Shown here: one piece after another, positions 3,151-50,546 of the stretch
How positions within the stretch are numbered: position 1 is the stretch's first letter
Layout of the letters: each line of letters starts with the position of its first letter
Virus record (IMG/VR): IMGVR_UViG_3300048033_000857
Span: 1-64,000 of that record
Strand: one strand, 5' to 3'
Length of the DNA: 64,000 nt
Source: a virus
Position numbers and translations under genes: made by a program
Notes under the pieces: generated by a model
What the model saw: only the letters and a program-made list of their open reading frames with translations
Databases searched by the model: none
Told to the model about the DNA's origin: nothing

Positions 3151-4122
3151 ATGGCATCATTAGCAGAAATCCGAGCAAAGCTCAAAGAGCAAGAATCAGG
3201 AAACAACAACCGCAATTCAGGCGGTGGTGACAACAGCATTTACCCATTTTGGAATATGAAAGAAGGCGAGAGTTCAACTCTGCGTTTCCTTCCTGATGGC
3301 AACGCTGATAACACATTCTTTTGGCAAGAGCGTTTGGTAATTAAACTACCATTTGCAGGCGTTAAAGGACAAACAGATTCGCGTCCAGTACAAGTACAAA
3401 TTCCGTGTATGGAAATGTATGGCGAAACATGTAACATTCTTAACGAAGTACGTGGTTGGTTTAAAGATCCAAGTCTAGAAGATATGGGTCGTAAGTATTG
3501 GAAAAAGCGTTCTTACATCTTCCAAGGCTTTGTAACGGATAACCCACTAAACGAGGACACTACTCCGGAGAATCCAATCCGTAGATTTATTATTGGTCCT
3601 CAAATCTTCAATATCATTAAGCAGGCGCTTATGGATCCAGATATGGAAGAATTGCCAACAGATTATACTGCTGGTGTAGACTTCCGTCTTAATAAAACTA
3701 CTAAAGGCGGATATGCAGACTATTCAACATCTAATTGGGCACGTAGAGATCGTCCACTAGGTGATAATGAAATGGCTGCTGTTAATGCACACGGATTGTT
3801 TAATCTAAGTGACTTCTTACCTAAAAAGCCAGGCGATGTTGAACTCAAAGTCATGCAAGAAATGTTCGAAGCATCAGTAGATGGTGAAGCATTTGACATG
3901 GATCGTTGGGGACAATATTTCCGTCCAGCGGGTATGGCACAACGTACAGGTGACCCTGTTGCTCCGGCAGCAAGTACTCCTGCACCAACTCCTGCGGCAG
4001 CACCTGCTCCAGTAGCAGAGGCAGCACCAGTAGCAACTCCAGCACCAGCGGCTGAAGCGGCTCCTGCAGAAGGTGGCAACGCCCAAGACATTCTAGCAAT
4101 GATTAGAAGCCGTCAAGGTTAA
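3151..4122 (+). CDS. 32: Single-stranded DNA-binding protein gp32
   Basis: A T4 gp32-type single-strand DNA-binding protein of 323 residues that coats replication and recombination intermediates. The N-terminus is a short basic region. The OB-fold core follows (IYPFWNMKEGESSTLRFLPDG, aromatic-rich), with Cys residues around 90-99 (CMEMYGETC) in the area where T4 gp32 has its zinc site. The C-terminal 60 residues are Pro/Ala low complexity ending in AQDILAMIRSRQG, in place of the acidic T4 tail that recruits partners. It has its own consensus promoter, an AGGAGG site 9 bases before the ATG and a terminator just downstream, so it is a single-gene unit. Confidence 0.93.
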   Translation: MASLAEIRAKLKEQESGNNNRNSGGGDNSIYPFWNMKEGESSTLRFLPDGNADNTFFWQERLVIKLPFAGVKGQTDSRPVQVQIPCMEMYGETCNILNEVRGWFKDPSLEDMGRKYWKKRSYIFQGFVTDNPLNEDTTPENPIRRFIIGPQIFNIIKQALMDPDMEELPTDYTAGVDFRLNKTTKGGYADYSTSNWARRDRPLGDNEMAAVNAHGLFNLSDFLPKKPGDVELKVMQEMFEASVDGEAFDMDRWGQYFRPAGMAQRTGDPVAPAASTPAPTPAAAPAPVAEAAPVATPAPAAEAAPAEGGNAQDILAMIRSRQG

Positions 4123-4134
4123 TAAGAGCAAGCT

Positions 4135-4168
4135 AAAAGGGTTGCTTTTACTGATTGCAACCCTTTTT
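4135..4168 (+). terminator. Rho-independent terminator after gp32
   Basis: A perfect 11-bp stem (AAAAGGGTTGC / GCAACCCTTTT) with an 11-base loop ends in a T run 13 bases after the gp32 stop. It separates gp32 from uvsX. Confidence 0.9.
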
Positions 4169-4199
4169 AGTTGCCCAACTTTTTAGATAGGAGATACAC

Positions 4200-5294
4200 A
4201 TGGCGAATAAATCATTCGACCCAACGAAGTTTAGAAACTCGTTAACTAAATCTATTTCAGGTATGAGTGCAGGTTTTAATGACCCTACTGATTGGATTAG
4301 TACAGGTAATTACGCACTCAACTATCTTATCTCAGGAGACTTTAACAAAGGTGTTCCAATGGGTAAGGTTACAGTTTTTGCAGGAGAGTCTGGTGCAGGT
4401 AAATCATATATCTGTGCAGGTAACATCGTAAAGGCAGCACAAGATCAAAATATCTTTGTAGTACTAATCGACTCAGAGAACGCACTTGACGAATCGTGGC
4501 TACATGCACTAGATGTAGACACATCGGAAGAAAAACTACTTAAACTTAATATGTCAATGATTGATGATGTAGCAAAAACTATCTCAACATTTATGACAGA
4601 CTACAAAGCAATGAACGAAGAAGACCGTCCTAAGGTATTGTTTGTTATTGATAGTTTGGGTATGTTGCTAACACCTACAGACGTTGATCAGTTTAACAAA
4701 GGTGATATGAAAGGTGATATGGGTCGTAAGCCTAAAGCACTAACATCACTTGTTCGTAACACAGTTAATATGATCGGCTCGCACAATGTAGGGCTTGTAT
4801 GTACTAACCACACATATGCATCGCAAGATATGTTTGATCCAGATGATAAGATTTCAGGTGGTCAAGGCTTTATCTATGCATCATCTATCGTAGTTGCAAT
4901 GAAAAAACTAAAACTAAAAGAAGATGAAGATGGTAACAAGATCAGTCAAGTTATGGGTATCCGTGCTGGCTGTAAGGTTATGAAGACACGTTATGCAAAA
5001 CCGTTTGAAGGTGTGCAGGTAAAGATTCCATATGAAACAGGTATGAATCCTTATAGTGGCTTGCTTGAATTGTTTGAATCTAAAGGCGTTATTGAAAAGC
5101 AAGGCAACCGTCTAAAGTATGTTACTAGCGATGGTGAAGAAATTCTTGAATATCGCAAAAAATGGATAGGCGAAAACCTCGATAAGGTTATGTCAGATTA
5201 TTTGGAAAAAGAAGCTTCTATGGTAAATACCTCTGAAGTTGACGAAGAAACAACTGATAATATCTTAATTGAGGACCCTATCACAAATGAATGA
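4200..5294 (+). CDS. uvsX: UvsX, RecA-like recombinase
   Basis: A strand-exchange ATPase of 364 residues that acts with gp32 and UvsY in recombination-dependent replication. Walker A is GESGAGKS (62-69) and Walker B is VLFVIDSLG (about 147-154). The segment GGQGFIYASS fits the DNA-binding loop region of RecA-type proteins. The ATG follows a TAGGAGATACAC ribosome site. The stop overlaps the start of the next small gene, implying translational coupling. Length and motif order match T4-like UvsX proteins. Confidence 0.95.
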   Translation: MANKSFDPTKFRNSLTKSISGMSAGFNDPTDWISTGNYALNYLISGDFNKGVPMGKVTVFAGESGAGKSYICAGNIVKAAQDQNIFVVLIDSENALDESWLHALDVDTSEEKLLKLNMSMIDDVAKTISTFMTDYKAMNEEDRPKVLFVIDSLGMLLTPTDVDQFNKGDMKGDMGRKPKALTSLVRNTVNMIGSHNVGLVCTNHTYASQDMFDPDDKISGGQGFIYASSIVVAMKKLKLKEDEDGNKISQVMGIRAGCKVMKTRYAKPFEGVQVKIPYETGMNPYSGLLELFESKGVIEKQGNRLKYVTSDGEEILEYRKKWIGENLDKVMSDYLEKEASMVNTSEVDEETTDNILIEDPITNE

Positions 5295-5520
5295 AGATCA
5301 AATAGCTGATGTTTGGATGATGTTTAAAGAATATCTTGACAAAAAACATGTTGAGATGGCTGCTGAACGTTTTGTAGATTTAATAGCTGATTATGGCACA
5401 TCGGACGAAGTCTTTACTGACTTACTAGGTACCGAAACTGCTTTAGATAATGCTATTAACTACTATTTAGATTTAGATGAAGAAGAAGTGTTTGACGACG
5501 AGGAAGAGGACGATTACTAA
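5287..5520 (+). CDS. Small acidic protein coupled to UvsX
   Basis: A 77-residue protein with a helical N-terminal half (MNEDQIADVWMMFKEYLDK) and a strongly acidic tail ending in EEEDDY. The frame is open from 5269, but the ATG at 5287, overlapping the uvsX stop, is the likely start. Its own stop overlaps the next ATG (TAATG), so uvsX, this gene and the UvsY candidate form one coupled unit. No known domain is recognisable. The acidic tail and position suggest a recombination accessory, which is inference. Confidence 0.7.
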   Translation: MNEDQIADVWMMFKEYLDKKHVEMAAERFVDLIADYGTSDEVFTDLLGTETALDNAINYYLDLDEEEVFDDEEEDDY

Positions 5521-5975
5521 TGGGTTGGTATAGCGAAGTATCTCGTGATGTTTCAAAGATTCCTAATGCAGTAGTGTACTTTGAAAAAGAACTAGGAGAC
5601 GCACGAGTTGAATGCAAACTTGCAGGCAATGTAGAAAAAGCGGCAGCAAGTATGCCGGGCATTGTTGAACATCGCTTTAACCAACTTCAAGAAATTGAAG
5701 CAATCCTTAACTACTTAAATATCGAGCTGCGTAGATTGCGTAGCTCGTACTTTAAGAAATATCTTGAAAACTATCAGCGAGCTCTGTCTAGCCGTGACGT
5801 TGAAAAATACGTTGACGGCGAGGCAGACGTTGTTGACTATGAAAAGATTATCAACGAATTTGCGCTAATGCGTAACAAATGGTTAGGTGTACTCAAAGCA
5901 CTTGATCAAAAACAATGGCAAATTACAAATGTAGTTAAGCTACGAGTTGCGGGCATGGAAGATGCATCCTTATAA
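5520..5975 (+). CDS. uvsY: Probable UvsY, recombination mediator
   Basis: A 151-residue, almost wholly helical protein. The C-terminal half (EKYVDGEADVVDYEKI, then RNKWLGVLKALDQKQWQITN) has the layout of UvsY-type mediators of marine T4-like phages, which load UvsX on gp32-coated DNA; T4 UvsY is about 137 residues. The assignment rests on this resemblance, its size and its coupling to uvsX, so it is less certain than UvsX itself. The next gene starts inside its last codons. Confidence 0.55.
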   Translation: MGWYSEVSRDVSKIPNAVVYFEKELGDARVECKLAGNVEKAAASMPGIVEHRFNQLQEIEAILNYLNIELRRLRSSYFKKYLENYQRALSSRDVEKYVDGEADVVDYEKIINEFALMRNKWLGVLKALDQKQWQITNVVKLRVAGMEDASL

Positions 5976-6606
5976 TATCCTAATAGGATGTGATCAAGCA
6001 TATTTTACTGATTGGGCAGTACCTTTACTAAGAAGTATCAATACACATAATCCTTGGATAAATTTACATTGTCATATTGTAAATCCAACAGTTGAAAATT
6101 CTTTAGATAATGTTAGTATTACTACTGAAACAAGAGAATTTGTAAACGATGAATCAAAAATATCTTATTTGCAAAGTGTAAGATTTTTAGCAGTTGCAGA
6201 TAAATTTAAAAACAATGAAAAAGTTATTACTCTCGATGCTGATAGTATCTGCACTCGACGCATAGGACAAGAAGCAGCAATACGTCGACTATTTTCAAAA
6301 CAACATGTATTAAAACACCATAAAGAAGACAGATGGCTTGCAGGGTTTGTAGTGTTTAATAATAATGGCTTTAGACAAGAATATGCAAAAGAATTAAGAT
6401 CAGTTCCGTATGATTTATGGAAATGGGGCAGAGATCAAAAAATATTAAATCAATTATCTAAAAAATACAAGTTTGTTGAATTAGATAAACTTTGGATGAG
6501 TATAGGTAAAAATAAAAACAATACTAGTGCGTTCTTAACATTAAAGGGCGAACAAAAGTTTACAGAAAAATATTTAAAAGCATATAAGAAGTATCTTACT
6601 GAATGA
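5962..6606 (+). CDS. GT-A glycosyltransferase (GT8-like)
   Basis: A 214-residue protein opening with YNILIGCDQAYFTDWAVPL, the first strand and loop of a nucleotide-sugar GT-A fold. A DxD metal site is at TLDADSI (D92/D94), followed by LAGFVVFNNNGF typical of GT8-like proteins. ATG 5962 (MHPYNILIG) is preferred over the upstream TTG at 5947. It overlaps uvsY by 14 bases and the next glycosyltransferase by 4, and opens a surface-glycan gene run placed inside the replication region. Sugar donor and acceptor are unknown. Confidence 0.7.
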   Translation: MHPYNILIGCDQAYFTDWAVPLLRSINTHNPWINLHCHIVNPTVENSLDNVSITTETREFVNDESKISYLQSVRFLAVADKFKNNEKVITLDADSICTRRIGQEAAIRRLFSKQHVLKHHKEDRWLAGFVVFNNNGFRQEYAKELRSVPYDLWKWGRDQKILNQLSKKYKFVELDKLWMSIGKNKNNTSAFLTLKGEQKFTEKYLKAYKKYLTE

Positions 6607-7541
6607 AAGTTATTGGAATTGAAGAAGTATTTAGGACACATCCTCTTCCAAATCTACCTAATTTTAAAATAGTAGATTGGAAAAATACAAAGGCACTAAA
6701 TTCGGCTGACATTTTTATACAAGCAAATATTGCAGAAAACAAACACAAAAAATTAAGACACAAATATGAATATATTAGACAATCAGGAAAACCTTGGATT
6801 GTAGCCGAAAGTGCTGTATTTAGACGTAATATGATACAACCACCAAATCCAATGTCATATCATAGATACAGTTGGTTTAGTTATTTTAGAAACGAAGGTC
6901 TTTATAATAATGTCAACTGTCCTAAAGACAGATGGGATCAAATACAAAAAGATCAAAATATAGAAATTAAATCTTGGCGTAAAGACGGTGATTATATTCT
7001 TGTTATATTACAACGTCCGGGTGATAGCAGTCTAAAAAATTTACTTGCAAAGTATAAAACTTATGATAATTTTTTAACTCAAGTTATTACAAATATAAGA
7101 CGCTATACTAATAGACCAATACGCATACGCATGCATCCTTTACGTCAAAATAAACAACAAGATATTATTAATAGATTATCTTTACCTAATGTAACAATAA
7201 GCGCAAACACACATGGTGCAGGATTATTAGAAGGCGGCGACGGATTATATAAAGATTTTGCAGATGCTTGGTGTGTTGTAGGTTTTAATAGTAATGCACT
7301 AACTGAAAGTATATGTGAAGGCATACCTACATTTAGTTTGTGTCCTAGCTCTATGGCTTGGGATTGCTCGAACACTAATTTAAAAGATATCGATAATCCT
7401 AAGTTTTTTGACCGGCAACAGTGGCTTAACAACTTAGGATATTGCCAATGGCGGGAAGATGAAATTGCACAAGGTGCGCCATATTTTCATTTAATGGAAA
7501 TATACGATCAAGCTAAAACTTATATTCAAAATGTTCGATAA
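6603..7541 (+). CDS. Capsule-type (Kdo transferase-like) glycosyltransferase, paralogue 1
   Basis: A 312-residue GT-B-like protein. Three motifs recall bacterial KpsS/KpsC-type capsule transferases: YILVILQRPGDSSL (131-144), RPIRIRMHPLR (171-181) and GFNSNALTESICEGIP (227-242). The C-terminal segment FDRQQWLNNLGYCQWREDEI recurs almost unchanged in the proteins at 11170 and 12982. Together with kdsA and kdsB in the same island, a Kdo-type donor is a reasonable hypothesis. It overlaps its upstream neighbour by 4 bases and converges on the sulfotransferase gene, with 29 bases of tail-to-tail overlap. Confidence 0.65.
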   Translation: MKVIGIEEVFRTHPLPNLPNFKIVDWKNTKALNSADIFIQANIAENKHKKLRHKYEYIRQSGKPWIVAESAVFRRNMIQPPNPMSYHRYSWFSYFRNEGLYNNVNCPKDRWDQIQKDQNIEIKSWRKDGDYILVILQRPGDSSLKNLLAKYKTYDNFLTQVITNIRRYTNRPIRIRMHPLRQNKQQDIINRLSLPNVTISANTHGAGLLEGGDGLYKDFADAWCVVGFNSNALTESICEGIPTFSLCPSSMAWDCSNTNLKDIDNPKFFDRQQWLNNLGYCQWREDEIAQGAPYFHLMEIYDQAKTYIQNVR

Positions 7542-8103
7542 CATTTAAAAAGTTTTGTCTAACAATATCAGCTGTTATAGGATTGTACAGTTCTTTATAA
7601 TCTTTATTTTTTCGAGTTTCGTTTTTTACAAAAGTAGTAAGTAATTCATTATTGTAAGGTATTTGTATTTTGTGTAATTTACTATGAAGTTTTTCATACG
7701 GTATTAGATCGTCAACAACTATAGTATTATTATTAGTGTACAATTTCCAATCATTTAAACTTGCAAACTTTGTATCTTTAAGAAAATAATAAAACCCGTT
7801 TTTAACTTTTCCTGGTTTTATTTTTTGATACCAATAGTAATAACTAACAACCTTATCCCATGGATTTCTTTCAACTGCAAATTTATAATAGTTTTGCCAT
7901 TCAAATGAAAAATTGTTTTTAATATATTTCCAACTAACGTGTCCGTCATCCGTTGGAGCATTTAGTCTAGGTGTGCCGTCTCTAGGAGATCCGGTGCAAA
8001 TGTCATCGGGTCCAAGATACCTATACAAATATTTTTCAATACTCGATCCTGCTGTCTTTCTAGTTTTTAAAAATATAAACTTATGTTTGTGTGAGATAAT
8101 CAT
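7513..8103 (-). CDS. Sulfotransferase family protein
   Basis: A 196-residue PAPS-dependent sulfotransferase-like protein. The 5'-phosphosulfate loop is FLKTRKTAGSSIEKYL (about 11-26) and the 3'-phosphate-binding motif is FAVERNPWDKVVSYYYW (about 75-91). This matches the Sulfotransfer_2-like group that acts on carbohydrates. A histidine-rich N-terminus precedes the loop. An APS kinase is encoded at 23247 and could provide donor. It is the second gene of a two-gene minus-strand unit, overlapping the upstream hydrolase by 23 bases. The likely acceptor is a host surface glycan, by inference from the neighbours. Confidence 0.8.
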   Translation of the reverse strand: MIISHKHKFIFLKTRKTAGSSIEKYLYRYLGPDDICTGSPRDGTPRLNAPTDDGHVSWKYIKNNFSFEWQNYYKFAVERNPWDKVVSYYYWYQKIKPGKVKNGFYYFLKDTKFASLNDWKLYTNNNTIVVDDLIPYEKLHSKLHKIQIPYNNELLTTFVKNETRKNKDYKELYNPITADIVRQNFLNVIEHFEYKF

Positions 8104-8716
8104 GTACTTTGTTTTCTTTAAAAAAATTGTTTATAATAGGATACAAGTTACCAGACTTTTTAAGTCGAAGCCCTATAGAATGATTTCCTTTAAGTAATAT
8201 TTTTGTTATATTATCTTTATTGGGTATCATAGAAAGATGTTTTTCGTCTCCGTCTTCTTCTCCATTTACAATTAAATATCTAGTATTTTCACTAAATTCT
8301 AAATTTTTATATTTCCATTTTTTAATATTCTTAACATATTTGTCCCAGCGATGTTCCCAAGGTACAATATTATGATTTACCGAATACTGTGTAGCAAATG
8401 CAAGAACAGCGTCTACAGGATATAGTGTACTAAACATACAAGCATTAAATGCACCCATACTGTTACCTAAACAGAATACTTTTTCTGTTTTTATTTTTCG
8501 AGTAATACTACGAACTTTAATGCCATTAAACCAAGATCTGTTTTTATCTATTACAAAAAGTACATTATATCCTTGCTTGTTAAGATTATAAAATTCTTGA
8601 TTAATTTTTCCGTTAGGATTATTACCAACACCCGAAAATGATATTACAGTTTTATCGCTTCCTATATATTTTTCTATTACTTCAGTCACAAGTATATTTA
8701 CCGAATAACTGCGCAC
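8081..8716 (-). CDS. Alpha/beta-hydrolase-like protein
   Basis: A 211-residue protein with a nucleophile elbow GNSMGAFNA (Ser86 in GxSxG), a later acidic segment VNGEEDGDEKH and a C-terminal LKGNHSIGLRLK that would supply the histidine of a Ser-Asp-His triad. Only GTG 8716 gives a full-length start; no ATG lies upstream of the elbow. It diverges from the gene at 8729 with only 12 bases between the starts. It may be an acyl- or glycan-ester hydrolase working with the sulfotransferase it is coupled to; the substrate is unknown. Confidence 0.6.
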   Translation of the reverse strand: MRSYSVNILVTEVIEKYIGSDKTVISFSGVGNNPNGKINQEFYNLNKQGYNVLFVIDKNRSWFNGIKVRSITRKIKTEKVFCLGNSMGAFNACMFSTLYPVDAVLAFATQYSVNHNIVPWEHRWDKYVKNIKKWKYKNLEFSENTRYLIVNGEEDGDEKHLSMIPNKDNITKILLKGNHSIGLRLKKSGNLYPIINNFFKENKVHDYLTQT

Positions 8717-27738: not shown

Positions 27739-27848
27739 AAAAGTTTTGGGGGTGGATTGCAACTCCGTATCGACGTTATAAAGAACGCCGAGCAATTAAA
27801 AAACGTTTAGAAGAACTTAAAAAATCAGATCCGTTTATTTACAAATGA
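27726..27848 (+). CDS. Tiny basic protein between primase and carbamoyltransferase
   Basis: A 40-residue protein opening MVYIKKFWGWIATPYRRYKE and ending KKSDPFIYK. The N-terminus is amphipathic with Trp/Tyr and may lie on a membrane; the rest is a basic helix. ATG 27726 is inside the primase gene and the TGA overlaps the next start (ATGA), so it is coupled on both sides. I recall similar tiny proteins in marine T4-like phages; function unknown. Confidence 0.7.
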   Translation: MVYIKKFWGWIATPYRRYKERRAIKKRLEELKKSDPFIYK

Positions 27849-29311
27849 TCACATGGGGCATATCAGCAAATAGTCACGATGCTGCACTAGCAGTGTTTAC
27901 TGACGAAGGACTAGAGTTTGCTAGTCACGCCGAACGCTTTAGTGGAGTTAAGAACGATGCACATCTTAATAAAGAGATAATTAACTATGCACGTCGATGG
28001 GGAGAGCCTGATGAAATTATTTGGTACGAAAGACCCTTTAGAAAAACTCTTAGACAGCTTCGAGCAGGACAAGGATTCAACTTTAGGGAAAACAATATCA
28101 ATCGTTATCTTCGATCTTATGATATATCTGCTCCTATTAAGTATACTAGTCATCACCATTCCCATGCTGCTGCCGGTTTTTATACTAGTCCTTTTGCAGA
28201 AGCCACTGTTGTTTGTATTGACAGTATTGGAGAATTCGAAACGCTGACTATATGGGAAGGCAAGGACAACGGACTAAAGCAAGTTTATAGTCAAGGGTAT
28301 CCGCACAGCATAGGACTATGGTACAGTGCAATGACGCAACGTGTGGGCCTTAAGCCTAACGAAGACGAATACATCCTAATGGGTATGGCAGCATATGGGG
28401 ACCCCCATAGACTGTTTATGGACATACTCAACGACTTTATTGACAAGACTGGTATAGGGTACGATCCTAAGATTAAAATAAAGCATAACCTACATCGAGG
28501 GTGCAAGTGGTGGCGTCCTGATCTTACTACCGAACAAGACATGTATGACATTGCAGCAGCTACCCAAAAGGTATATGAATATATACTATGTAACACTCTG
28601 CTATGGGCCAGTAGAAACTTTGCTAGCAAGAACCTTGTACTCATGGGAGGGTGTGCGCTTAACTGTAGTGCTAACAGTATTGCTTATCGCTTTTACGACA
28701 ACGTATGGATTATGCCCAACCCAGGAGACGCAGGCAGTGCTATAGGTGCTGTGCTTGCACACAAAAAAGAAACATTGCCTATGACACATGCGTACTTGGG
28801 CTACAACATCGAAGGAGAGTATCCAGTTGAAGAAACAATCAGCGAACTCAAGAAAACGGGAATCGTGGGTGTTGCGAATGGTAGGGCGGAGTTTGGCCCT
28901 CGTGCTTTTGGCAATCGCAGCCTACTTGCTGATCCCCGTGGTAACGACATCAAGCACAGAGTCAATGACATCAAGCAGCGACAGCAGTTCCGACCCTTTG
29001 CCCCAGTGGTGCTCGAAGAGTATGCAAGTGACAATTTTGAAGGGTACTACAACAACTATATGCAGTTTACCTCCACCTGCACCAATCCAGACTTGTATCC
29101 TGCCATCGTACACGCAGACGGCACCAGTAGAGTCCAAGTGGTACCAAGAGATGGTAGCGGAATACGAGCTTTGTTAGAGCGTTGGTATGAAGAAACAGGA
29201 TGTCCTATGTTACTAAACACAAGCCTAAATATCAAAGGAAAACCGATGGTAAATGATAAACAAGATGCACAGGAATTTACAAAAAAGTATGGAGTTAAAG
29301 TATGCAGTTAG
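27845..29311 (+). CDS. NodU/CmcH-type carbamoyltransferase
   Basis: A 488-residue enzyme that transfers a carbamoyl group from carbamoyl phosphate to a hydroxyl. Its N-terminal Kae1-like domain begins ITWGISANSHDAALAVF, with HHHSHAAAGFYTSPF and DSIGEFETLTIWEG. The C-terminal YrdC-like part holds GRAEFGPRAFGNRSLLADPR and QFRPFAPVVLEE, all family hallmarks. NodU-type enzymes modify sugars, which fits the glycan island. It overlaps the following oxygenase by 10 bases. The acceptor cannot be read from sequence. Confidence 0.92.
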   Translation: MITWGISANSHDAALAVFTDEGLEFASHAERFSGVKNDAHLNKEIINYARRWGEPDEIIWYERPFRKTLRQLRAGQGFNFRENNINRYLRSYDISAPIKYTSHHHSHAAAGFYTSPFAEATVVCIDSIGEFETLTIWEGKDNGLKQVYSQGYPHSIGLWYSAMTQRVGLKPNEDEYILMGMAAYGDPHRLFMDILNDFIDKTGIGYDPKIKIKHNLHRGCKWWRPDLTTEQDMYDIAAATQKVYEYILCNTLLWASRNFASKNLVLMGGCALNCSANSIAYRFYDNVWIMPNPGDAGSAIGAVLAHKKETLPMTHAYLGYNIEGEYPVEETISELKKTGIVGVANGRAEFGPRAFGNRSLLADPRGNDIKHRVNDIKQRQQFRPFAPVVLEEYASDNFEGYYNNYMQFTSTCTNPDLYPAIVHADGTSRVQVVPRDGSGIRALLERWYEETGCPMLLNTSLNIKGKPMVNDKQDAQEFTKKYGVKVCS

Positions 29312-37166: not shown

Positions 37167-37204
37167 AGTGTTTAGCCCTCTTGCTATGTTTAACTTACTC
37201 TATT

Positions 37205-37411: not shown

Positions 37412-37687
37412 TTAGTACAGTTCGTATACAGTTGGTGCGTTTAGATTGTTTGCGTTACAGTATGCTTCAAGCTCACGGCATACTGTAGCTAGGAAGCGAT
37501 ACTTGCGCTGTGCTTCTGCGTTAGATATCTCTCCATCACAGTGCAAGTTCTCTGGCGATAGTTTGCTGTCCAGTGTACGTGCCAAGTCATTCACTTGAGT
37601 CTGGCTCAGTGGAAATGTCATTGGAGCTGTGTTGAAGAATGCGATCCAACGGTTGTTGTCATCGATGAAGTTCTTTAGGTTTTGCAT
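37412..37687 (-). CDS. 91-residue early protein, unknown
   Basis: Begins MQNLKNFIDDNNRWIAFFNT, is mainly helical, and has an AEAQRKYRFLATVCRELEAY amphipathic helix. GAGGGCA lies 7 bases before the ATG. It heads a two-gene unit with the 59-residue gene. Small size and promoter class point to a host-takeover protein, but no homology is recognised. Confidence 0.65.
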   Translation of the reverse strand: MQNLKNFIDDNNRWIAFFNTAPMTFPLSQTQVNDLARTLDSKLSPENLHCDGEISNAEAQRKYRFLATVCRELEAYCNANNLNAPTVYELY

Positions 37688-37720
37688 GTGTTTGCCCTCT
37701 ATTGCTTAACTGTTATATAC

Positions 37721-37770: not shown

Positions 37771-37961
37771 AAAAAAAAGCCCTAGCATTGGACGAGGGCA
37801 CATCCTGCTAGGGCTTAGTCTAGGAAGCAGAGCGTGAGGGCATACGCTGTTCCACTACCTTAGTTACCTTGCAGCTCTAATGGGCTGCTTCGGTGTACAC
37901 ACACTCGGACGAGGGCTGTCCTCCTGTGTGTTCGAACTAGCACGAGGGCACATGCTAGTTC
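37771..37961 (-). ncRNA. Candidate small RNA with four hairpins whose loops match early Shine-Dalgarno sites
   Basis: On the minus strand, four hairpins follow each other. (1) 37961-37934: 9-bp stem GAACTAGCA/TGCTAGTTC, loop TGTGCCCTCG. (2) about 37930-37900: CACAC/GTGTG plus GGAC/GTCC stems, loop AGCCCTC. (3) 37848-37831: AGCGT/ACGCT, loop ATGCCCTC. (4) 37816-37777: 11-bp stem, inner loop with TGCCCTCG, ending in a T run that makes it a terminator. An extra GCAGC/GCTGC hairpin lies between 2 and 3. No ORF occupies the segment. UGCCCUC/AGCCCUC is the exact complement of the GAGGGCA/GAGGGCU ribosome sites of this block. It could be processed from, or read through from, the AAA ATPase transcript. 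On the opposite strand the loops would instead mimic ribosome sites. Confidence 0.65.
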
Positions 37962-37977
37962 TACAGTATGCGGAGCT

Positions 37978-38979
37978 CTATGCTCGACGCATCACTGTAT
38001 TCTCTGCCATTGCTTCCCACTTGGTAGGGAACGCTTCGGCTAAGTCTGCTACCTTGAGCACTGTACGCAAGCTCAGTTCGCGCAGACGATTTTTATTAAT
38101 ATCTACAAAGTCCATGATGTCCTCTTTGACTTCATCATCAATCTTGCGATCGTCTAACATACCATCCGACACCACTTGCTTGATGCGCAGTACTTTGTCC
38201 TTGTCCGTATCGATAGTCAAGTCCATGTAGTGGCAACGGCTCTCTAGCGCACTCAAGTGCTCACGCAGTTTGCCTTTGACTTTGTCGAACTTCAAGTTGG
38301 TAATGAAGATCGCACTTGCTTCGAACTTAAACTTGTCCGGCACACCTTCGTTGCGCAATTTGAAGCTGTCGGTGTTCCAATGGATCCAACGATTCTTCTT
38401 TGAGTCTAGTGCTGCTTTCAAAATATTAAGGCTTAGATCATCTTGGAAGATGCTGTCACAGTCATCGAACACAACAACCTTGCCTTTGTCTGCCATGTTA
38501 AACAGTTTGCAGTAGAGTCCAATTGGGCTCATCGCACCTTTGATCACTTCGTGTGTCTTGCCTGCACCCAGTGTCTCCATCATAGCATAGCGTTCTAGTA
38601 CTTCTTCTACACCGTGGCTCTTGCCTACACCCGGAGGGCCGCTAACGATCATTGCTCGAACGCTGCCTTTCTTGACGGCTTTGGTCATATCTTTGAGCAT
38701 GTCAAACCGTTCGCGGATGCGCTCTACAATCTCAGCGTCTGACTCTTCGCGTTCGGTTGTCTCGACATTTGCTCCAACCTGCTCGTAACCCTCCGGGCCA
38801 GCAACCTTGATCTTGATGTTGCGATCCGGAAACCCATTTACTGCCGCGCCGTCGACAGTTACGTAACCTCCTCGAGCTCCTACTTTGAAACCTTCTACTA
38901 GTGGAAAGACCATGCCTGTCATGTCTACATCTTTACCACGAATCTTATATGTGCCTTCTGTAATTCTAACGTTTGTCAT
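37978..38979 (-). CDS. AAA+ ATPase
   Basis: A 333-residue ATPase, the largest protein of the early block. Walker A is VSGPPGVGKSHG (about 112-123) and Walker B VVVFDDCDSIF (about 168-178). FEASAIFITNLKFDKV holds a sensor-1-type Asn, and LESRCHYMDLTID the box VII-type Arg region. The N-terminal 90 residues (TYKIRGKDVDMTG, a beta domain) are not recognised. Related phage ATPases of MoxR or clamp-type shape exist; the substrate is unknown. GAGGGCG precedes the ATG. The candidate hairpin RNA lies directly downstream. Confidence 0.75.
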   Translation of the reverse strand: MTNVRITEGTYKIRGKDVDMTGMVFPLVEGFKVGARGGYVTVDGAAVNGFPDRNIKIKVAGPEGYEQVGANVETTEREESDAEIVERIRERFDMLKDMTKAVKKGSVRAMIVSGPPGVGKSHGVEEVLERYAMMETLGAGKTHEVIKGAMSPIGLYCKLFNMADKGKVVVFDDCDSIFQDDLSLNILKAALDSKKNRWIHWNTDSFKLRNEGVPDKFKFEASAIFITNLKFDKVKGKLREHLSALESRCHYMDLTIDTDKDKVLRIKQVVSDGMLDDRKIDDEVKEDIMDFVDINKNRLRELSLRTVLKVADLAEAFPTKWEAMAENTVMRRA

Positions 38980-39009
38980 ATCGCCCTCTTTGTTTCTAAC
39001 TATACGTAT

Positions 39010-39038
39010 ACTATACTATCAGTTTCGAATCCTGTCAA
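39010..39038 (-). promoter_or_regulatory. Early promoter for the AAA ATPase
   Basis: Minus strand TTGACA (39038-39033), 17 bases, TATAGT (39015-39010). The -35 box lies inside the last codons of the 54-residue gene. Confidence 0.85.
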
Positions 39039-39526: not shown

Positions 39527-39564
39527 TTGCAAACCCTCTTGCTGTTGCCCTAACTGTTATATAC

Positions 39565-39849: not shown

Positions 39850-39880
39850 GTTTGCCCTCGTTTGTTTAATTGTTATATAC

Positions 39881-40244: not shown

Positions 40245-40278
40245 TTGGATTGCCCTCCTAATTTCTAACTATACATAC

Positions 40279-40513: not shown

Positions 40514-40546
40514 TGGATGCCCTCCATTGCTTCTAACTATACATAC

Positions 40547-40655: not shown

Positions 40656-40739
40656 TGGTGCCGCCACCGAGACTCGAACTCGGACGCCATAAGCGAGGGA
40701 TTTTAAGTCCCTTGTGTCTACCTATTCCACCATGGCGGC
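40656..40739 (-). tRNA. tRNA-Leu (UAA)
   Basis: Minus strand, 84 bases with encoded CCA. Acceptor GCCGCCA / TGGCGGC, anticodon arm AGGGA-CTTAAAA-TCCCT (anticodon TAA), a long class II variable arm and T arm with GTTCGAG. All arms are complete. Confidence 0.95.
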
Positions 40740-40844
40740 TTATGTCCACGCCAACCCCGGGCAAATCTATTAATAGTCCCAGAGCCTGACAGTCGCTATG
40801 TGATCTCCTACCTCAGCGTAATCGGTAAGGAACGCTGTCGTTGT
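40740..40844 (-). other. tRNA spacer, possibly structured
   Basis: 105 bases between tRNA-Arg and tRNA-Leu. A GGTAAGG/CCTTACC-type pairing and an AGCGT/ACGCT hairpin at 40815-40835 are present. There is no T-loop or anticodon arm and no ORF. It may be simple processed spacer. Confidence 0.5.
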
Positions 40845-40921
40845 TGGCCTGCCCTGCAGGATTCGAACCTGCGACCCACAGCTTAGAAGGCTGTTGCTCT
40901 ATCCAGCTGAGCTAAGGGCAG
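40845..40921 (-). tRNA. tRNA-Arg (UCU)
   Basis: Minus strand, 77 bases with encoded CCA. Acceptor CTGCCCT / AGGGCAG, D arm TAGCTCAGCTGGATAGAGC, anticodon loop CTTCTAA (TCT), T arm GCAGG-TTCGAAT-CCTGC. It reads AGA/AGG, useful for an A+T-rich genome. Confidence 0.95.
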
Positions 40922-40926
40922 TTATT

Positions 40927-41003
40927 TGGTGGGCCCTCCGAGACTCGAACTCGGAACCTACGGATTATGAGTCCGGTGCTCTAACCAATTGAGCTAAGAG
41001 CCC
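40927..41003 (-). tRNA. tRNA with CAU anticodon (Met or Ile2)
   Basis: Minus strand, 77 bases with encoded CCA. Acceptor GGGCTCT / AGGGCCC, anticodon loop CTCATAA, T arm CCGAG-TTCGAGT-CTCGG. A CAU tRNA may be elongator Met or an Ile tRNA needing lysidine; the sequence alone does not decide. A normal 7-bp acceptor argues against initiator tRNA. Confidence 0.93.
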
Positions 41004-41990: not shown

Positions 41991-42021
41991 TGTGTTGCCC
42001 TCTTTGCTAATTTATATATAC

Positions 42022-42439: not shown

Positions 42440-42471
42440 TGGAGCCCTCCGTTTGCCTAACTGTTAATAAT

Positions 42472-43405: not shown

Positions 43406-43438
43406 ATTGTTGCCCTCTTTTGTTTAACTTATACATAC

Positions 43439-43829: not shown

Positions 43830-43864
43830 ATAAAGCCCTCCATATGCTGTTACGTTATACAAGC

Positions 43865-44259: not shown

Positions 44260-44294
44260 AGTTTGCCCTCTTTGCTTTGTTAACTTATACATAC

Positions 44295-44702: not shown

Positions 44703-44737
44703 ATTATAGCCCTCTATGCTGTTAACGTTATATAAAC

Positions 44738-45058: not shown

Positions 45059-45093
45059 ATTATAGCCCTCTATGCTTGTTAACTTATACATAC

Positions 45094-45831: not shown

Positions 45832-45865
45832 AGTAGTGCCCTCTTTGTTTCTAACTTATACATAC

Positions 45866-47404: not shown

Positions 47405-48272
47405 ACGTGTTGAAATACACACTGATAGCTCTTGCGTAGAGTTTGAGTTGGCTGATACCTCAGCTGCAAACGCTTGGTTTGACTATGCACGTGATGTGGT
47501 TAGATACACCACCAACAGTTTTTATTGTACGCATGTGTGGAGAGAAGCAGCCACAAGTGCAGAGCAGACCAATTGGCAGCAGATCAAACGTTTGACACAG
47601 GAGCTAGACCATCACATTCAAACACTAGTACGTCACACAGGTCAAGACTATGCCAGTGTGAAGGCTGCAATTCGCAGTCTAGAGTCACAGCCCACACAAG
47701 CAGCCTGCAACACCATACACAGATTGTTTACCAGTGTGTGTCAATCAGGGCAATTAGCAGAGCACAACTCAGCTGACCTAGAACAGAGTGTACACGCTAT
47801 CAATGGTTGTGTACACGAGATAGAAGTCAGCTTTGGTCAACCCTTGCGTGAGCAATGGGATGGCAGAGTATTTCAAGTGTTGTTCACCGACGCACTCACA
47901 CGTGAAGGCGTGGACTTTAGTGTGTGGAACACCAGCCTTAGACATCAACAGTTTGATCATCGCACTCAAAACACTGACTATGATGTGTGGCTCAATGACG
48001 ACATATTGGGCAAAGATCTACCCAGATGTTTTCTTGATCAAGATGACCCTTGCGAATCAGACATCACAGGCAATCAGTTTCTAACACCCAGCCTTTATTT
48101 CGATCTAGATCGACACTATCATCGTATAGTAACAAGCCCAGAGTTTAACACATGGCTGGACGATACCAAGTGTGGCAAAACACTAGACAGATGGCCCTTG
48201 GGCACCATTACTAACATAACACAACTGCCTGAGGAATACACTCAGGTCTTGGAGTATAAATTTTATGACTGA
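47397..48272 (+). CDS. Unknown protein preceding the twitch radical SAM pair
   Basis: A 291-residue protein from ATG 47397 (MARRVEIHTDSSCVEFELAD); the longer open frame upstream overlaps the previous gene. Rich in His, Thr, Gln and Cys. It contains many amphipathic helices (AWFDYARDVVRYTTNSFYC, ELDHHIQTLVRHTGQDYA) and strands such as WDGRVFQVLFTDAL. It overlaps the first radical SAM gene by 8 bases. It could be a substrate-recognition partner or a precursor protein; both are guesses. Confidence 0.55.
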   Translation: MARRVEIHTDSSCVEFELADTSAANAWFDYARDVVRYTTNSFYCTHVWREAATSAEQTNWQQIKRLTQELDHHIQTLVRHTGQDYASVKAAIRSLESQPTQAACNTIHRLFTSVCQSGQLAEHNSADLEQSVHAINGCVHEIEVSFGQPLREQWDGRVFQVLFTDALTREGVDFSVWNTSLRHQQFDHRTQNTDYDVWLNDDILGKDLPRCFLDQDDPCESDITGNQFLTPSLYFDLDRHYHRIVTSPEFNTWLDDTKCGKTLDRWPLGTITNITQLPEEYTQVLEYKFYD

Positions 48273-49458
48273 CAAACGATGCCTTGCGCCTTGGATACAC
48301 CTACACACTTGGCCCAATGGCAGCACCTATCCCTGTTGTCTAACAGACATGCGAGACATAGTAGGCAACACCAACAACAACACTCTCAAAGAAATATTCA
48401 ACGACAAACCCATGCGTGATCTACGTTTGGATTTTATAGCAGGCAAAGAACCCAAGACCTGTAGTCGTTGTTTCGAACAAGAGCGTATGGGTCAAAGCAG
48501 CCTGCGCAATCATATCGATCGCAATTTTGGACAACACAAAGATCTTATCGCAACTACACTACAAGATGGAACAGTAGAAGACATGCGTCTAGTATACTGG
48601 GACTTTCGATTCTCTAACATCTGTAACATGAAGTGTCGCAGTTGTGGACCGCAGTTGAGTTCGGGTTGGTACGAAGATGAAAAGAAACTCAACGGACGTT
48701 TGCCTCCGGATGTACCAGATCGAACAATAGAGAGTAACCTATGGGAAGATCTACTACCACATTTTGATTGGGTAGAAGAAATTTACTTTGCAGGCGGTGA
48801 GCCTCTTATAATGGAGGAACACTATCGTATTCTAAACAGACTGTTAGAACTAGAAAAAACTGATGTGCGCATACGATATAACACTAACTTTTCAACCATG
48901 CGTTACAAAAAGCTAGATGCTATTGATGCTTGGAGTAACTTTAAAAATGTAGAAATTGGTGCTAGCCTAGACGGCATGGGCAAACAAGCTGAGTACATTC
49001 GTTCTGGTACTAAATGGCAGCAGGTACTAGACAATAGAGAACGTATGAAACTCAAAGTGCCGCATGCAAACTTCTACATCAATTGTACTGTGAGTGTGCA
49101 GAATGCATATCACATTGTAGATTTTTATAAATGGGCTGTTGAATCAGACTTTATTCCTTATGTTGATAGTTTTAGAATTAATATAGTTCAAAACCCTCTC
49201 AAATTAAGGATGCAGATGCTTCCTACTCATCATAAACAGGCTCTTACCAAACTGTATAAAGAAACAGCAGAATGGGCCAAGACCAAAGGCAGTAACGGAT
49301 TGGTAGTAGATCAGTGGGAAAGTTTGATTAATTTCTTAAATGATCAAGATCAGCCTGAAAACTTAGAGCAGTTTAAAACATACATGGGTGCTATAGATAA
49401 CATAAGGAATGAAAGTTTTGCTGAAACGTTTCCTGAAATGAGAGACCTAATTGAATGA
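48265..49458 (+). CDS. Twitch-domain radical SAM protein 1
   Basis: A 397-residue enzyme with an N-terminal Cys-rich twitch (SPASM-like) module: CLAPWIHLHTWPNGSTYPCC and CSRCFEQERMG, which should hold an auxiliary Fe-S cluster. The radical SAM core follows with NICNMKCRSCG (CxxxCxxC for the SAM-binding 4Fe-4S cluster) and YFAGGEPLIM. This order matches the family of twitch-domain radical SAM proteins known from marine phages and bacteria, whose substrates are unknown. It overlaps the second copy by 4 bases. Confidence 0.85.
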   Translation: MTDKRCLAPWIHLHTWPNGSTYPCCLTDMRDIVGNTNNNTLKEIFNDKPMRDLRLDFIAGKEPKTCSRCFEQERMGQSSLRNHIDRNFGQHKDLIATTLQDGTVEDMRLVYWDFRFSNICNMKCRSCGPQLSSGWYEDEKKLNGRLPPDVPDRTIESNLWEDLLPHFDWVEEIYFAGGEPLIMEEHYRILNRLLELEKTDVRIRYNTNFSTMRYKKLDAIDAWSNFKNVEIGASLDGMGKQAEYIRSGTKWQQVLDNRERMKLKVPHANFYINCTVSVQNAYHIVDFYKWAVESDFIPYVDSFRINIVQNPLKLRMQMLPTHHKQALTKLYKETAEWAKTKGSNGLVVDQWESLINFLNDQDQPENLEQFKTYMGAIDNIRNESFAETFPEMRDLIE

Positions 49459-50546
49459 GTAAGCCGTGCTTATTACCATTTATACATTTAGAAACTGACA
49501 CAGTAGGCAATGTTCGTCCTTGTTGTATGTGGCGCGGCGAACCAATGGGCAATCTAAACAATCAAAGTATCGACGAAGTATGGAATGGAGAGCGTTATTC
49601 AGCTCTTCGAGAACAGTTTCGCACAAGCAAACAATTGCCTAGTGGTTGTGAATTTTGTTGGCGTGCCGAACAAGGAGGCATGCAGAGCAAAAGACAAAAT
49701 GATAATGCTAGATTTGACCATCATCAGCACGGAGTTACGCTCGATGCTCCTGTTTATTTAGATCTTAAACTAGGATCAATATGCAACATTAAATGTCGTA
49801 CTTGTTCGTCACAGCATTCACAAAAATGGGCTGCTGATGAGAAAATAATATACGGCGAACAACGTTTCCCTACAGTTCTTAATTGGCTAGATGACGACAG
49901 TCAGTTTTGGAAAGACTTAGAAAAAATTGCTCCTACTATTGAGTTTATTGATTTTACTGGAGGAGAACCTTTTCTAGTAAAAGGCCACTGGCAACTATTA
50001 GAGTATCTTGTCGAGCACGGATACGCTGCTAATATTAAAATACATTACAACACAAACGGAACAGTACTACCCAAGCCAGAGCAACGCGACTTATGGTTGC
50101 ACTTTGAATGGGTAGAAACTATGTTTTCTTTTGATGGCATAGGCAGCAAGTTTGAGTATTTACGTCATCCTGCACGTTGGGATAAAGTCCTGCATACCTT
50201 TAACACAATACTTGATGAAGCTGTTACTCATACAACATTATGTTACACAGTTAGTTTAATGAATGTATTAGACATGAGAGAGTTTGCAGAGTGGGCCCCT
50301 GTTGATGTGTATTGGAATATGTTACACGGACCAGAGTATTATAGTATACGTAATCTACCAGAAAATGTAAAAGACATTATTGCTGATAAAATAGATAGAC
50401 AAGATGTAATAGATTACATGTACGCCGGCGAGCATAGTAAAGGTCTATGGGAAGATTTTGTAAAAACTACAAAACAAATTGATATAATACGTAACGAAAA
50501 CTTTAGTACAGTATTTCCAGAACTTTCTCAACTAATAAATATCTAA
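49455..50546 (+). CDS. Twitch-domain radical SAM protein 2
   Basis: A 363-residue paralogue of the preceding enzyme. N-terminal PCLLPFIHLETDTVGNVRPC and GCEFCWRAEQGG bind the auxiliary cluster; the core has SICNIKCRTCS (CxxxCxxC) and DFTGGEPFLVK. The end (IIRNENFSTVFPELSQLI) mirrors NIRNESFAETFPEMRDLI of copy 1. Two adjacent copies suggest sequential or paired modification of a peptide, glycan or other target. It is the last gene before a late-type promoter. Confidence 0.85.
   Translation: MSKPCLLPFIHLETDTVGNVRPCCMWRGEPMGNLNNQSIDEVWNGERYSALREQFRTSKQLPSGCEFCWRAEQGGMQSKRQNDNARFDHHQHGVTLDAPVYLDLKLGSICNIKCRTCSSQHSQKWAADEKIIYGEQRFPTVLNWLDDDSQFWKDLEKIAPTIEFIDFTGGEPFLVKGHWQLLEYLVEHGYAANIKIHYNTNGTVLPKPEQRDLWLHFEWVETMFSFDGIGSKFEYLRHPARWDKVLHTFNTILDEAVTHTTLCYTVSLMNVLDMREFAEWAPVDVYWNMLHGPEYYSIRNLPENVKDIIADKIDRQDVIDYMYAGEHSKGLWEDFVKTTKQIDIIRNENFSTVFPELSQLINI

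Follow-up and report, generated by a model that had tools for sequence, protein, structure and literature searches.

The switch from early to late gene expression in phages is mostly credited to proteins, such as RegA and RegB of T4, sigma factors, and polymerases. Blocking of Shine-Dalgarno (SD) sites by RNA loops (LhrC, csRNAs, P1 c4) and tandem small RNAs (sRNAs) derived from 3' UTRs (CcsR) are likewise already known. LhrC of Listeria monocytogenes, which is encoded by 5 gene copies, carries redundant C-rich (UCCC) sites in its loops and linker, including the terminator loop, and binds a G-rich site ahead of the start codon, blocking the SD (PMC4132741). The streptococcal csRNAs, a small family, present a conserved anti-SD (CCUCCU) in a loop and are predicted to block ribosome binding (PMC4438229), while Rhodobacter CcsR1-4 lie in tandem and are released by processing from the 3' UTR of a gene transcribed together with them (PMC8625941). 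In phages P1 and P7, the c4 RNA pairs around the ribosome-binding site of a phage mRNA, probably via loops (reviewed in PMC12197685), and the T4 endonuclease RegB cuts GGAG in early SDs, including that of its own gene (PMC3014915).

We analyzed a stretch of 64,000 nucleotides (the window), part of an 83,337-base virus record, in which a multi-hairpin RNA follows a gene for a 333-aa protein. Like LhrC, this RNA has several C-rich loop sites, one of them in the terminator loop, which are complementary to the leaders or SDs of putative targets; unlike in the bacterial RNA, a fixed AGGGC/GCCCU pair is used regulon-wide and the number of hairpins per RNA is variable. The csRNAs complement the generic SD and the start codon, whereas the phage loop is complementary to a special tag and has only weak predicted pairing with ordinary SDs. 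CcsR1-4 share the tandem arrangement and the 3' UTR location, but they are encoded on a host chromosome and have other targets. While c4 has 1 target and belongs to temperate phages, approximately 12 to 20 separate early mRNAs are predicted as targets here; the region has no Rfam match to c4, and the early-gene cluster, which is that of a different kind of phage, is not an ant operon. The likeness to RegB would lie in a regulon-wide early shut-off via an early SD motif, its own gene included; however, RegB is a protein endonuclease acting on GGAG, whereas here an RNA would recognize AGGGC. Titration RNAs of the CsrB/RsmZ type expose GGA sites in loops, whereas the sense loops at this locus read GCCCUC, and the strand showing GAGGGC is the less structured one in 46 of 50 loci.

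No Rfam 15 family reached its gathering threshold in the region, the best match being suhB/mmgR with 21.7 bits versus 41. Furthermore, a literature search, with most subscription papers outside its range, retrieved no description of such a phage RNA or of an RNA matched to a regulon-wide tag, and both the RNA family and the tag look new. We consider the odds somewhat in favor of an undescribed, protein-free phage RNA family that rules an entire early regulon by a code of tag and anti-tag, with ordinary ribosome sites being ignored. What sets the locus apart is that one RNA is apparently matched to a regulon-wide leader tag, whose non-ribosomal C needs another partner. It could serve as a test case for a virus making a private translational channel, orthogonal to ordinary SD sites, and as a naturally occurring case of an RNA regulator with multivalent binding.

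A hairpin RNA behind the 333-aa gene

On the minus strand of the window, from approximately 46.1 to 37.2 kb, small genes are arranged in a row, and most of them have a leader of approximately 30 nt behind a TTGAC-N-TATA(C/G)T promoter. We infer that this block, together with the gene hosting the RNA, is early. The host protein (PHROG_1250) shows weak clamp-loader-like similarity. Genes for tRNA-Leu(UAA), tRNA-Arg(UCU), and tRNA-Met are located within the block (40656-41003, minus strand). Elsewhere in the window, there are 2 neighboring radical SAM-like genes, both of PHROG 14086 (48265-50546, plus strand), and a Nol-like carbamoyltransferase (27845-29311); a search of the window's record for a terminase found none.

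Between the 333-aa gene (37978-38979) and the next promoter lies a region that folds at -83.1 kcal/mol (z = -5.0), with 0 of 200 shuffles folding as well. Its minus strand contains GCCCTC at 37949-37944, 37916-37911, 37841-37836, and 37799-37794, and these 4 GCCCUC copies are on average 83-97% unpaired according to fold prediction. This bears out the sequence-only reading, which had described a minus-strand RNA of 4 hairpins with the last being a terminator; 2 motif-less hairpins (37990-37970 and 37894-37868) are added to it.

39010..39038, minus strand: promoter of the host gene and the RNA, TTGACA-17-TATAGT, 11/12 consensus match (promoter scan)
37978..38979, minus strand: host gene upstream of the RNA, 333 aa, PHROG_1250, own SD GAGGGCG (sequence and profile similarity)
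37771..37990, minus strand: multi-hairpin 3' UTR RNA, from the stop-codon hairpin of the host gene to the U-tract (fold z -5; position kept in 50 deduplicated loci)
37970..37990, minus strand: stop-codon hairpin, GCG-UC-GAGC AUAGA GCUC-CGC, formed from the last codons and stop of the host gene; without the GCCCUC motif in the window (sequence, relatives)
37934..37961, minus strand: hairpin 1, GAACUAGCAUG-UGCCCU-CGUGCUAGUUC (fold)
37897..37931, minus strand: hairpin 2, AGCCCUC in the loop, pairing with GAGGGCU (fold)
37868..37894, minus strand: motif-less hairpin ACCGAAGCAGCCCAUUAGAGCUGCAAGGU, between hairpins 2 and 3 (fold; also recognizable in the relatives L006, L041, and L061)
37831..37848, minus strand: hairpin 3, AGCGU-AUGCCCUC-ACGCU (fold)
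37771..37816, minus strand: hairpin 4, AAGCCCUAGCAGGAUG-UGCCCU-CGUCCAAUGCUAGGGCUU and U-tract, an intrinsic terminator with a tag-complementary loop (sequence, fold)

The closing G-C pair of hairpins 1 and 4 includes the last C of GCCCUC, and the remaining hexaloop, UGCCCU, is the exact complement of AGGGCA. Together with AGCCCUC in hairpin 2, which matches GAGGGCU, both variants of the conserved leader tag are represented among the loops, as had been proposed. Hairpin 4 ends in a U8 tract; it was not listed by a consensus terminator scanner, probably because of its internal bulge. The only candidate for a promoter of the RNA's own is a promoter-like site within the gene that is weak, matching at 9 of 12 positions. 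The phage small RNA envisaged by the sequence-only reading is therefore upheld as a conserved structured RNA, but it is located in a 3' UTR, with the mRNA terminator at its end and without a strong promoter of its own, as is typical of 3' UTR-derived sRNAs.

Relatives of the host gene were collected by searching IMG/VR with the 333-aa protein, which yielded 64 loci. All readable loci with at least approximately 68% identity harbor 2 to 5 hairpins with GCCCU(C) loops just 3' of the stop codon, and, after deduplication, 50 loci had the RNA directly 3' of this gene. In 25 of these 50, the first GCCCTC lies within approximately 10 nt of the stop codon, tying the RNA to the upstream mRNA. The single displaced case is L007, where gene and RNA are separated by an insertion. 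This insertion (approximately 2189-2860), located at the extreme 3' end of the gene, repeats its last codons, with gene end, stop-codon hairpin, and RNA being restored downstream, and looks like a mobile element targeting the 3' end of the gene. A further 13 loci with 46-48% identity were classed as RNA-less; the downstream DNA was inspected in 3 of them, and the RNA was absent from all 3. Two independent hairpin-pattern scans of the viral collection revealed multi-hairpin copies exclusively beside this gene, the other matches being isolated and in unrelated DNA.

The phage collection contained no record with at least 60% identity to the 333-aa protein, and, within that collection, the RNA-bearing viral group seems to be uncultured. 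The carriers of the RNA are aquatic viruses of bacteria. The sole match in a cellular bin, a contig in a Porticoccaceae MAG, is a weak hint at a gammaproteobacterial host. Since the relatives include contigs of 236-357 kb, the group belongs to the large phages.

Across 119 hairpins, the stem score was 12.55, compared to 6.67 ± 0.26 with permuted 3' arms. The 30 distinct hairpins of the GUGCCCUC class were gathered by their motif, which is therefore invariant by construction, while their stems were not selected in this way; for these, pairing amounted to 81%, and the covariation score was 0.58 versus 0.03-0.18 for slid partners, a value reached by 0 of 500 shuffles. Arms that vary with compensation around a fixed loop core, GCCCU(C), are the pattern of stems under RNA selection. 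With respect to the strand, the mean fold z was -5.43 in gene sense and -3.14 in antisense, with the sense strand being better in 46 of 50 loci. No promoter-like sites were found on the opposite strand near the RNA. The strand assignment is based on these fold z-scores and uses neither of 2 counts of G-U versus A-C: the initial count (41:3) was discarded as biased, since G-U had been allowed during stem choice, and a symmetric recount (25:43) was discarded because it was dominated by loop-adjacent and non-stem positions. A point against this strand comes from the CCGCCCUCA loop class, in which a C-A adjoins the loop; read from the opposite strand, it would be a G-U.

The AGGGC tag in leaders

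GAGGGC occurs 26 times in the window (9.1 ± 3.0 expected). The pattern GAGGGC-N3-9-ATG was found 14 times in the block, each time on the strand of the RNA, with the next base being A in 8, T in 5, and G in 1 case. The previous claim of at least 14 genes with GAGGGCA or GAGGGCT thus holds for the GAGGGC core, but the A and T variants add up to 13. The putative target tags, identified from the sequence (the upstream tag at 39547..39551 from the leader sequence), are as follows:

37175..37180, minus strand: GAGGGCT
37694..37699, minus strand: GAGGGCA of the next gene (37412-37687; promoter 37749-37721)
38983..38988, minus strand: GAGGGCG of the RNA's own host gene
39547..39551, minus strand: upstream tag AGGGC(AA) in the leader of promoter 39593, which has the SD GAGGGU (39538)
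39854..39859, minus strand: GAGGGCA
40252..40257, minus strand: GAGGGCA
40519..40524, minus strand: GAGGGCA
41997..42002, minus strand: GAGGGCA
42444..42449, minus strand: GAGGGCT
43412..43417, minus strand: GAGGGCA
43835..43840, minus strand: GAGGGCT
44265..44270, minus strand: GAGGGCA
44709..44714, minus strand: GAGGGCT
45065..45070, minus strand: GAGGGCT
45838..45843, minus strand: GAGGGCA

The tag of the host gene makes autoregulation possible. GAGGGU predominates among genes with a deviating GAGGG and can still form wobble pairs with GCCCUC.

For the comparison across genomes, leaders were gathered by promoter rather than by SD in order to avoid circularity. AGGGC was present in 331 of 427 (78%) distinct promoter-led leaders on the RNA's strand of RNA-bearing loci, compared to 2 of 39 on the opposite strand. 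When leaders were aligned on [A/G]AGG, the core pairing with 16S rRNA, the following positions were G in 83%, C in 73%, and A in 68%, while the flanks of the tag and upstream leader positions showed little beyond base composition. Pairing with the canonical 16S tail is limited to GAGG and excludes the subsequent G and C of the tag. The predicted energies are -12.0 kcal/mol for tag and loop (7 bp), -6.3 for tag and 16S tail, and -3.0 for the loop with an AGGAGA site. The proposal that ribosome pairing leaves the GC of the tag unexplained is supported by these values, and the weak pairing of the loop with ordinary AGGAG sites implies that late genes should be spared. Furthermore, the spacing of the tag varies with respect to both the -10 element and the ATG, and it is therefore not a fixed-position promoter element.

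The tag coincides with the SD in 294 of the 331 tagged leaders. Farther upstream in the leaders, however, AGGGC occurs 52 times versus 1.6 times expected in shuffles (all genomes), and tags in this position are overrepresented in leaders whose SD differs from AGGGC (Fisher 5e-4 without L031 and L039, 8e-8 with them). In these 2 genomes, many leaders have an ordinary AGGAG SD, yet carry AGGGCAA(AC) approximately 8 nt past the -10, near the mRNA 5' end. Together with the window leader of promoter 39593, such displaced tags indicate that it is as an RNA sequence in a short leader that the tag is conserved. The partner named by the sequence-only reading, the ribosome site, is thus usually correct but too narrow: AGGGC(A) can be anywhere in the approximately 30-nt leader, sometimes at the 5' end before an AGGAG SD. 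The proposed loop-loop pairing does not fit, since the targets are short leaders and pairing would be that of a loop to a single strand. Several L031 leaders (7647, 11602, and 15878) contain a small hairpin, GCUAA-GGAG-UUAGC, with the AGGAG SD in its loop.

RNA and tag occur jointly. AGGGC was found in 0 of 36 leaders of RNA-less loci, and 0 of the 13 loci with 46-48% identity use the tag. Counts of GAGGGC-N3-9-ATG were 0, 0, and 1 in RNA-less genomes (including PA5oct), compared to 11-24 on the RNA strand in 6 RNA-bearing genomes. In a 275-kb relative, 18 AGGGC-SD starts, all on the RNA strand, are located in the 20-kb bin of the RNA versus 14 across the other 255 kb. Moreover, GAGGGC sites kept alongside changed loops, the constellation named in advance as speaking against the pairing, were absent from the 50 deduplicated loci. 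In the protein tree, a single branch (100/100) separates RNA-less from RNA-bearing sequences, and the co-occurrence therefore represents one evolutionary event. The lowest branch of the RNA-bearing clade is L034, with 2 hairpins and only 1 tagged leader. Its leaders at 3257-8532 share a different element, GUGAGCGAACAGCUC (a hairpin), followed by AGGAGA, which is possibly another leader code.

Proposed mechanism and its alternatives

The partnership of loop and tag as RNAs is well supported at the level of sequence, namely by the conserved RNA and its strand, its compensated stems and invariant loops, the 16S independence of the tag, and the linkage and joint occurrence of both; expression, action in trans, repression, and timing are what we infer beyond it. 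We consider it likely that a multivalent sRNA derived from the 3' UTR pairs with the tagged early leaders and represses their translation. In this model, the 3' UTR of an early mRNA, intact or processed, would act in trans, with each of its 2 to 5 hairpins presenting (U/A)GCCCU(C) in a loop of 6-9 nt. The loops would pair with the AGGGC(A/U) tag in the short leaders of most promoter-led early mRNAs, the tag usually being the SD (GAGGGCA, or AAGGGCA in some species) and sometimes lying near the 5' end. Nucleated by loops on a single strand, this pairing would block 30S binding. The host gene has both a promoter and a tag of its own; transcription of the RNA would accordingly coincide with that of the early mRNAs, and as the RNA accumulated, the products of the early regulon, including that of the host gene, would fall. 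Several loops per molecule would make the RNA multivalent against approximately 15 mRNAs, and late genes with ordinary AGGAG sites would be spared. The whole early set is thus probably turned down, or otherwise controlled, by one RNA. Since the code is common to all relatives, the RNA could also act against superinfecting relatives.

Tags close to the 5' end fit SD occlusion less directly. The same pairing could instead have a positive effect, with the RNA protecting early mRNAs from 5'-dependent decay or opening the leader, or with the mRNAs acting as a sponge for the RNA; FasX is a model for sRNA pairing that protects an mRNA 5' end or opens a leader. The 5' tags of L031 and L039, away from the ordinary SD, would suit this explanation, as would the fact that the tag carriers are the early mRNAs. 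However, the tag is the SD in 294 of 331 cases, and there the ribosome would face competition from a 7-bp duplex of -12 kcal/mol; we regard a positive effect as unlikely. It is very unlikely that the loops are sites of a phage or host RNA-binding protein (for processing, as a chaperone, or in anti-termination) and that their complementarity to the tag is incidental. Invariant loops on varying stems are also typical of protein-binding hairpins, but the most conserved element of the leaders, encoded in the same cluster and on the same strand, is matched exactly by this loop as its reverse complement, and RNA-less relatives lack both loop and tag.

Two explanations without pairing of the minus-strand loops to leaders are less probable still. 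AGGGC might be a DNA element (an operator or initial-transcribed sequence) copied with a mobile promoter-leader cassette, with the hairpins stemming from cassette terminators. Leaders are alike within a genome, and T4-type phages carry mobile promoter and stem-loop cassettes; nevertheless, the spacing from the -10 and the ATG varies, the tag is retained from genome to genome amid flanks close to background, and stem compensation needs RNA, rendering this highly improbable. The least probable explanation is the one that the sequence-only reading had offered as its alternative, a plus-strand RNA whose hairpins show GAGGGC and titrate a translational repressor of ribosome sites in a CsrB-like manner. 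On that strand, GAGGGC would be displayed in loops, and the CCGCCCUCA class would close better. The fold asymmetry disfavors it, as the gene-sense fold is better in 46 of 50 loci; so does the presence of the U-tract and the promoters on the minus strand, with none on the plus strand nearby, as well as the finding that, in half of the loci, the first motif lies close to where the gene on the sense strand stops.

Loop and tag beyond the invariant core

The sequence-only reading had asked whether loop and tag drift together between phages. Both cores are invariant, and covariation between them therefore cannot be seen; outside the core, no significant co-adaptation was detected, neither between the base after AGGGC and the base before GCCCTC per genome (rho 0.07, p 0.71) nor between complementarity to the own and to other genomes (p 0.24). 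L031 alone stands out (complementarity of 4.0 versus 1.1), with its loop context UGUUUGCCCU being complementary to AGGGCAAACA in its leaders, and it is the only genome with a clearly extended match. The combination of GCCCTT loops with AAGGGC SDs, seen in the species of L005, L006, and L012, was considered as clean covariation and rejected, since L032 and L033 have GCCCTT loops with GAGGGC SDs, and L021 and L035 have GCCCTC loops with AAGGGC or other AGGGC SDs. In these 3, AAGGGCA replaces GAGGGCA in most early SDs; it is complemented in full by the terminator loop, UAUGCCCUUA, in L005, L006, and L012, while the other loops keep GCCCUC.
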